NCBI GenBank assembly: GCA_013995675.1
Contig: VWRR01000010.1
Coordinates: 186,001 to 250,000 of the forward strand
Reading direction: 5' to 3'
Length of the DNA stretch: 64,000 nucleotides
From: Cyanidiococcus yangmingshanensis
Taxonomy: Eukaryota; Rhodophyta; Bangiophyceae; Cyanidiales; Cyanidiaceae
Part shown: piece after piece, positions 6,992-8,125 of the stretch
Position numbering within the stretch: the first letter of the stretch is position 1
How the letters are laid out: every line of letters starts with the position of its first letter
The notes under the pieces: model-generated
Told to the model about the DNA's origin: nothing
Database searches by the model: none
What the model saw: the letters and a program-made list of their open reading frames with translations, nothing else
Made by a program: the position numbers and the translations under genes

Positions 6992-8125
6992 TTACTCGCT
7001 GCTGGCTGTGTGGGGCCTCATCGTTGGATTCGTGGATAGGCGAGCCAGTTGAGGATCCTCTATCCCCAGCTGGCGGAATGCGGTGTGCCTAATTCGACAA
7101 GCATCACAACGCCGACATGGAGTCCCGGCCTCATCCAATGGGTCATAACAGCTGTGAGTCATCGAATAATCCACACCAAGGCGCAGACCTTCCTGTATGA
7201 TCTCGGTCTTCGGCATTTGCAGTAAAGGCGCATGAATCCGAAAGCGACGATCGGTATTTTTCTCTACACCAGCCCGTGTTCCCAGTTCAGCGACATGTTC
7301 AAAGGCTTGAAAGTATTGCGGCCGGCAATCCGGATACCCCGAATAATCTACAGCGTTCGCACCAATGAAAATGTCATAGGATCTATGAACCTCAGCGAGC
7401 GCGAGCGCGTATGCGAGAAATATTGTGTTCCTCGCAGGAACGTATGTGACTGGTATAGACTCGGGATTCGTTTTCCACACCATATCCAACTGAGGTGCTT
7501 TCGGTACAAGAATCTCAGCGTTCGTGAGTGCGGACCCACCGATGCACCCAAAGTCGAGTCGAATCCAATGGTGCGCGAGAACCTGCTGAGCGAGAGCGAT
7601 GCGTCTCGCTGCCTCCAGCTCGCAGCGATGACGTTGTCCATATTCGAAGCTCAGCGCGCGACACGCGTATCCTTGTGAGCGGGCAAAAGCAAGGGTGGTC
7701 GCAGAGTCGAGGCCACCGCTCAGTAGCACAATAGCTACAGGCGACTCTCGTTCACCGATCTTGGTCTGATCATTCTGATTGTTTGTGTTTGCATTCAGCG
7801 CGTCCTTGCTATGGCTGTTCAGAAACCGGATGAAAACAGTTCTCTGATAGATTGCTCTACGGGTTGCCTTTGCTATGGTCTCGGGTTCGCCCCTGAACGT
7901 TTTCGGCACAATTCTCCTGTCGGTACCGTTCTCCTCGCGCATTCTTGTGGTCTTCTTGACGGGATCCTCGCTAAAGGAACGCTTACTCGTGATCCCTCTA
8001 GGAAGTACATCACGACCCAAGACGACTCGGTAAAATCGTCCACGCTCCTCGGCCTTCTTGTGCGTCCAAGAGCGGCGCCAAAACCGGAGAGCACACCGCA
8101 ACTCTGACAAAGCCTGCGCCATCAT
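6992..8125 (-). CDS. queC: 7-cyano-7-deazaguanine synthase (QueC-like)
   Basis: QueC converts 7-carboxy-7-deazaguanine to preQ0 with ATP and ammonia, the last shared step to queuosine, archaeosine and DNA deazapurines. The 377-residue product starts at a double ATG. Residues 130-377 form a full bacterial-type QueC. They show the PP-loop SGGLDS (136-141), S-F-E-Y-G-Q-R-H, VPARNTIFLAYALALAE (bacterial V-P-G-R-N), the diagnostic GANAVDYSGYPDCRP, MPKTEIIQEGLRLGVDY, and a C-terminal zinc site (H-S-C-Y then C-x2-C-x2-C in PCRRCDACRIR). Residues 1-129 are a basic extension absent from bacterial QueC, possibly an organelle leader or linker. No queD, queE or queF neighbour is present. Eukaryotes normally salvage queuine, so horizontal transfer from bacteria is the likely origin, and the extension plus host-like setting argue against contamination. 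The family call is secure; the role in the alga is unknown. Confidence 0.92.
   Translation of the reverse strand: MMAQALSELRCALRFWRRSWTHKKAEERGRFYRVVLGRDVLPRGITSKRSFSEDPVKKTTRMREENGTDRRIVPKTFRGEPETIAKATRRAIYQRTVFIRFLNSHSKDALNANTNNQNDQTKIGERESPVAIVLLSGGLDSATTLAFARSQGYACRALSFEYGQRHRCELEAARRIALAQQVLAHHWIRLDFGCIGGSALTNAEILVPKAPQLDMVWKTNPESIPVTYVPARNTIFLAYALALAEVHRSYDIFIGANAVDYSGYPDCRPQYFQAFEHVAELGTRAGVEKNTDRRFRIHAPLLQMPKTEIIQEGLRLGVDYSMTHSCYDPLDEAGTPCRRCDACRIRHTAFRQLGIEDPQLARLSTNPTMRPHTASSE

Follow-up and report, generated by a model that had tools for sequence, protein, structure and literature searches.

To our knowledge, the de novo synthesis of queuosine has so far been credited solely to bacteria, whose enzymes for the individual steps are of established chemistry. 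The only published version found in the literature searched is a partial, salvage one: the bacterial-type pathway proposed for Chloropicon mitochondria (PMC12301720, 2025). The stretch under study, called the window, is a 64-kb segment (contig VWRR01000010.1, positions 186,001 to 250,000) of the genome of the hot-spring red alga Cyanidiococcus yangmingshanensis, assembled into 20 contigs of 12,072,675 bases in total. It carries a gene for QueC, which probably supplies one reaction of a full de novo route to queuosine encoded in the nucleus. The alga itself is probably a queuosine prototroph.

Compared with the bacterial pathway (FolE-QueD-QueE-QueC-QueF-TGT-QueA-QueG, as in E. coli), a recognisable homologue is present in the algal genome for all eight of the eight steps. 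The algal genes, on the contrary, are nucleus-encoded and scattered over contigs, with only QueD and QueF seen side by side. Several of the proteins carry organelle-type extensions. The pocket of the bacterial-like tRNA-guanine transglycosylase (TGT) is non-canonical, and this protein is accompanied by QTRT1 and a QTRT2-like protein. A Leu at the Cys158 site of the bacterial-like TGT is shared with Chloropicon; in contrast to the salvage model proposed there, the red alga additionally possesses the upstream genes (PMC12301720). Each enzyme is of a known kind; the novelty is that they occur together in a eukaryote, several with organelle-type extensions and one of them, the TGT, atypical. Because the alga carries an apparent full gene set, the belief that all eukaryotes need bacterial queuine is probably due for revision.

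In the literature searched, outside which most subscription journals lie, no eukaryote was found to be credited with QueC, QueE, QueF or de novo synthesis; the articles covered in part include PMC12301720, PMC4425180, PMC8877259, PMC2376095, PMC7439116, PMC2763108, PMC11570991, PMC9812998 and PMC4646009. The main text of PMC12301720 contains none of the terms QueC, QueD and QueF (QueE was not searched there), and queuosine terms do not occur in PMC6629376 or PMC9812998. Hints of the pathway exist outside papers, because databases already label the QueE proteins of Porphyridium and Galdieria as 7-carboxy-7-deazaguanine synthase.

The QueC Protein

The gene is a single open reading frame (ORF), with its only stop codon at its end and in-frame stops upstream (Table 1). 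The Pfam QueC family matches residues 131-353 with 229.2 bits, and the curated equivalog TIGR00364 is passed (176.4 bits vs. a cut-off of 150.3); the score of a second QueC model, PRK11106, is below its cut-off (108.5 vs. 378). The solved QueC structures 2pg3 and 3bl5 are matched at E values of 7e-23 and 2e-21, respectively. The PP-loop, LLSGGLDS, fits the SGGxDS pattern, and C326, C337, C340 and C343 (C-x10-C-x2-C-x2-C) line up with cysteines in both structures; their role is presumably the binding of zinc. The match far exceeds chance, and the QueC is real and intact: the full domain with PP-loop, DYSGYPDCR motif and zinc-type cysteines, described in the first-pass annotation of the window, is borne out on every count.

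The AlphaFold model has a mean predicted local distance difference test score of 62, the domain being modelled better than the extension, which is mostly of low confidence. Ranked by fold against the PDB, this predicted structure finds 2pg3 and 3bl5 at the top, followed by Cap9. A defence-type QueC relative was considered and rejected, the score for QatC being 12.5 where 280 is required, and Cap9 (9nto), third by fold nevertheless, reaching 34.1 bits vs. 84.6 for 2pg3. The idea of a lone orphan QueC was dropped as well, once homologues for the remaining queuosine steps turned up in the genome.

Candidate Genes for the Remaining Steps

In the proposed pathway, FolE would convert GTP into dihydroneopterin triphosphate, from which QueD would produce 6-carboxytetrahydropterin. 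The radical S-adenosylmethionine (SAM) enzyme QueE would then form 7-carboxy-7-deazaguanine (CDG), to be turned into preQ0 by QueC with ATP and ammonia and reduced to preQ1 by QueF. The bacterial-like TGT would insert preQ1 into tRNAs with GUN anticodons, QueA would add the epoxycyclopentanediol from SAM, and the cobalamin-dependent QueG would finish queuosine. In the cytosol, QTRT1 and the QTRT2-like subunit would make use of queuine. What the analysis establishes is the genes themselves, the families and key residues of their products, the integration of QueC, and the occurrence of several of these genes in other red algae; the enzyme activities and the order of the steps are inferred.

The inventory was obtained by family profile searches of all contigs and by NCBIfam scans of ten ORFs with curated cut-offs. 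The genome contains one QueC, three PTPS, one FolE, three TGT, one QueF and one QueG, as well as one QueA and one QueE, each of the latter two matched as two pieces of one frame. The first-pass annotation had raised the possibility of preQ0 production and named FolE, QueD, QueE, QueF and TGT as the partners to look for. All five are represented, together with QueA and QueG, and possible preQ0 production stands as the best reading; the annotation understated the case, which concerns a whole apparent pathway rather than an isolated QueC.

FolE was identified with an E value of 1.1e-70 in the family search and 225.6 bits in NCBIfam (cut-off 181.6). The PTPS on contig C9 exceeds the QueD equivalog cut-off (98.6 vs. 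89.25 bits) and keeps the C-x3-HGH motif. A second PTPS, on C20, does not reach this cut-off (64.7) and is taken for a biopterin-type enzyme, which it presumably resembles. QueF scores 148 bits (cut-off 86.9), and its key residues CP-TGQPD, ESKSLKLYL and DFHE match those in 4f8b, while QueA passes PRK00147 (329.2 vs. 324). QueG, with 328.9 against a cut-off of 200, shows the DYH and VDTG motifs (as named in PMC4646009) and eight cluster cysteines, judged by spacing. As QueG is cobalamin-dependent and all eight of these cysteines are kept, some use of B12 by the alga is indicated. No QueH was found in a family search of the whole genome, but its step is covered, since QueG is present. The Qng1 family PF10343 (DUF2419) has no match in the genome either; the control genomes also gave none.

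QueE is encoded on C7 in a full frame of 351 residues. It keeps the C-x3-C-x2-C cysteines of the SAM cluster and the motifs QGEG, TGGEP and SPKL, and is matched by five NCBIfam QueE models (E up to 1e-5). With the predicted structure, ranks 1-6 among the PDB folds are all occupied by QueE enzymes from E. coli, B. subtilis and B. multivorans. The assignment is one of motifs and modelled fold, not of a cut-off.

Two further observations concern these families. The deposited QueE F1559_001458 (198 residues) is 100% identical to the full frame over 198 residues but starts at an internal Met; it looks like a truncated gene model, without the radical SAM cysteines of the full protein. The third PTPS-family protein, of 123 residues (L016:4300-4668, on C2), is divergent, with 33.1 bits to QueD and no C-x3-HGH.

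Apart from QueC, the pathway genes lie on six other contigs (C1, C7, C9, C15, C19 and C20). QueD and QueF are convergent, with 805 bases between them, and are flanked by RNase P/MRP p29 and PSMD12/CSN4-type genes. By our own estimate, the chance of two pathway genes adjoining is ~2%, for about ten pathway-related genes among about 4,830 (gene number from PMC9812998). The pair is a possible two-gene metabolic cluster in a eukaryotic chromosome.

Table 1. Positions of QueC, its neighbours and selected pathway genes; positions without a contig or locus name refer to the window.
Feature	Position	Strand	Remarks
QueC (7-cyano-7-deazaguanine synthase) gene	6992..8125	-	377 residues, ATG start, intronless ORF
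QueC domain	6992..7738	-	residues 130-377; PP-loop 134-141, DYSGYPDCR 260-268, Zn-type cysteines 326/337/340/343
Basic N-terminal extension of QueC	7739..8125	-	129 residues
QueD	C9:240087-240512	+	neighbour of QueF
QueF	C9:241318-241917	-	neighbour of QueD
Bacterial-like TGT	L012:3779-5035 (C19)	-	TGT-family frame
QueG	L021:703-2412 (C20)	-	cobalamin-dependent enzyme
RING-variant (RINGv) protein gene	4448..5953	-	QueC neighbour, eukaryotic context
Protein kinase gene (Pfam Pkinase)	9823..12150	-	QueC neighbour, eukaryotic context

TGT Proteins and Their Substrate Pockets

The TIGR00430 cut-off of 306.75 is passed by two of the three TGT-family genes, with 423.7 and 352.6 bits. The product of the gene on C20 is QTRT1: it has 462 bits to 6h45, the human QTRT1 (PMC11570991), and a pocket reading DDV and GGLAGGE. 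The gene on C1 gives a partial match of 91.1 bits, and its product is taken for a QTRT2-like protein. The third protein, encoded on C19, resembles bacterial TGT, with 261 bits to 2ash and ~230 bits to many further chains, which we take to be those of the Zymomonas mobilis enzyme. In its pocket, DEL is found, with Leu at the Cys158 position, and the loop GGSLGKD is one residue shorter than GGLAVGE. Val233 pairs with Leu, not Gly, in the alignment, the assignment of a Gly to this site hinging on the placement of a one-residue gap. As the substrate of QueA is preQ1-tRNA, the bacterial-like TGT must accept preQ1 if the pathway works, and this predicted acceptance is the weakest of the steps.

Bacterial-like TGTs have been described as carrying Leu and Gly in their two specificity positions and as being of chlamydial origin (PMC12301720), and a chlamydial TGT in red algae has been reported (PMC2376095). 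Queuine-salvaging TGTs typically show GG[LS][AS]G (PMC11570991).

N-Termini and Cellular Location

N-termini were compared by the number of K/R vs. D/E in the first 40 residues and by the maximal helical hydrophobic moment over 18 residues, a crude measure and not a predictor. The charge counts are 10/4 for QueC, 6/1 for QueE, 7/2 for QueF and 10/0 for QueG, and the maximal moments of these four range over 0.43-0.60, with 0.60 for QueC. Lower moments are seen in QueD, QueA and QTRT1 (0.24-0.30), while FolE (0.37) and the second PTPS (0.40) are intermediate. The basic character of the QueC extension, noted from the start, stands; its location is judged by this crude measure, by which it appears to be a mitochondrial-type presequence. 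Mitochondria are the probable site of action of QueE, QueC, QueF and QueG, with organellar tRNAs as direct or indirect targets; the plastid is the less likely alternative. The proposed location agrees with the mitochondrial prediction published for the bacterial-like TGT, QueA and QueG of Galdieria (PMC12301720).

Basic N-terminal stretches are found in relatives too: in the QueC of Cyanidium caldarium and Rhodosorus, in the QueE of Cyanidioschyzon merolae, Porphyridium and Galdieria, and in the QueF of C. merolae and Galdieria partita. Their helical moments span 0.23 to 0.56, and some of them do not exceed the values of QueD or QueA. The N-terminal extensions of the algal QueCs measure ~30-130 residues, whereas the examined bacterial-type rows mostly start at most ~15 residues before the domain, P0011 excepted.

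Relatives and Origin

The protein searches list the 120 best out of about 8,000 scored candidates. The eukaryotes named among these for QueC are Cyanidiococcus, Cyanidium caldarium and the stylonematophycean Rhodosorus marinus; for QueF, they are Cyanidiococcus, C. merolae and Galdieria partita. QueE was found in Cyanidiococcus, C. merolae, Porphyridium purpureum, Galdieria sulphuraria and Pyropia vietnamensis (a partial match covering 40% of the query), along with two MMETSP (transcriptome) rows and one EukProt protein, the name style of which is presumably that of Cyanophora paradoxa.

Strain mate aside, QueC is closest to proteins from other algae or of alga-like type, the best bacterial matches being ~60% identical; rows named as Phycisphaerae-type planctomycetes show 57-63% identity to the algal QueC. 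A quick tree built from 201 rows unites all seven of the rows taken as red (support 82). They fall within a set of 94 rows (95*); those of its members that carry names are mostly Phycisphaerae or other planctomycetes, and three are Armatimonadota. A more careful tree, of 95 rows, joins the cyanidialean sequences with one further row (97/97*); in it, Rhodosorus is separate, at the end of a long branch and with little support. An approximately unbiased (AU) test did not reject a single clade of the seven red rows (p 0.397); a control union with two gammaproteobacteria was rejected (p 0.003). The trees place QueC in or beside planctomycete-rich bacteria, and not within the clade of a contaminant at near identity. 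A plastid origin is not suggested, because none of the best 80 genome loci for QueC is cyanobacterial by name; the QueC tree was without a known cyanobacterial row.

In the QueE tree, all 12 of the rows labelled algal belong to a set of 35 rows (86); adding four short rows of bacterial appearance gives a set of 39 (99*). Five cyanidialean rows group in the QueF tree (95*), with Galdieria outside. On evenly balanced grounds, red algae, and perhaps glaucophytes, may be old queuosine prototrophs, with an ancestral mitochondria-aimed pathway from several donors (planctomycete-like for QueC, chlamydia-like for TGT).

Weighing the Pathway Against Its Alternatives

Several findings speak against a complete pathway of this kind. 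The preQ1-type pocket (Cys158/Val233, GGLAVGE) is present in neither of the catalytic TGTs, QTRT1 or bacterial-like, and the frame of the latter has no Met ahead of the conserved region. Because Cyanidiales introns number a few tens, a rare 5' intron, an alternative start or decay are possible at this end. Of the five NCBIfam models that match QueE, none has its cut-off reached (best 100.3 vs. 260.1); these models appear subtype-specific, the TIGR04322 cut-off being passed in just 1 of 14 control genomes. QueA is narrowly under the TIGR00113 cut-off (264.1 vs. 267.45). No QueC of C. merolae 10D or Galdieria is among the 120 best matches, despite their QueE and QueF matches; for Galdieria, the list may be too short. 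As to location, low moments (0.22-0.32) occur in the QueE of C. merolae and Porphyridium and in one QueF relative, and QueA and QueD have no extension, which counts against a single shared compartment.

An unlikely alternative is that the alga only salvages: preQ0, preQ1 or queuine would be taken up, the upstream enzymes being relics or serving folate or biopterin synthesis. Mitochondrial salvage has been proposed for Chloropicon, and the bacterial-like TGT, QueA and QueG have been noted in Galdieria (PMC12301720). The TGT pockets look queuine-like, FolE and PTPS-family proteins serve pterin synthesis too, and QueF could handle salvaged preQ0. On the contrary, the key residues of QueE and QueC are intact, we know of no salvage role for either enzyme, and the QueC domain is kept between strains, with four differences in 248 residues.

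Decidedly improbable is a use of preQ0 or preQ1 outside tRNA, for instance in a 7-deazapurine natural product. Red algae are among the listed sources of 7-deazapurines, and huimycin and toyocamycin are made via CDG/preQ0 enzymes (PMC7439116), a route that QueC could feed. The genome also encodes QueF and the proteins of tRNA queuosine, namely the bacterial-like TGT, QueA and QueG, and the unrelated use of the chemistry that had once been suggested has become less likely because these later steps are present.

A complete de novo pathway is preferred to both. If true, a eukaryote carrying the full complement of genes would break the rule of eukaryotic queuine dependence, and the 7-deazapurines reported from red algae (PMC7439116) would have a host-made source. 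The alga would offer a genetically simple model of organellar de novo queuosine, in which B12-dependent tRNA modification would be testable. Should red algae be old queuosine prototrophs, queuosine precursors would have a source within the eukaryotes, and the need for bacterial queuine in other eukaryotes would become a loss or a never-gained trait.

Genomic Context of QueC

In a second strain, CCYA (8.1.23 F7; PMC9812998), the same 377-residue QueC, extension included, is found with 97% identity on its own 610-kb contig. The 12 differences in 377 residues are distributed as eight in the 129-residue extension and four in the domain. The GC content of QueC is 0.535, close to that of eight other window genes (0.518-0.570) and of the window as a whole (0.536). 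An assembly chimera or bacterial contamination is very unlikely, to the point of being negligible, because the second strain shares the protein and Cyanidium and Rhodosorus have relatives: the ~60% identity of bacterial QueC and the missing intron could speak for it, but the second strain has the full-length protein on a separate contig, the neighbours are eukaryotic with matching GC, the other pathway genes are spread over six further contigs, and Cyanidiales introns number only tens (PMC9812998). An acquired and integrated gene, as initially supposed from its surroundings, is the best reading.

The eukaryotic character of the flanking genes is likewise upheld. Besides the RINGv and kinase genes of Table 1, which lie on either side of QueC, the window encodes, further on, SecY/Sec61 (with a Sec61 plug) as well as MutS, CysRS and an EF-G-like GTPase. 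The label SRPK-like, given to the kinase in this analysis, derives from its split kinase domain. A bacterial-type elongation factor P, N-terminally extended, is encoded at window positions 24125-24922 and is probably organellar.
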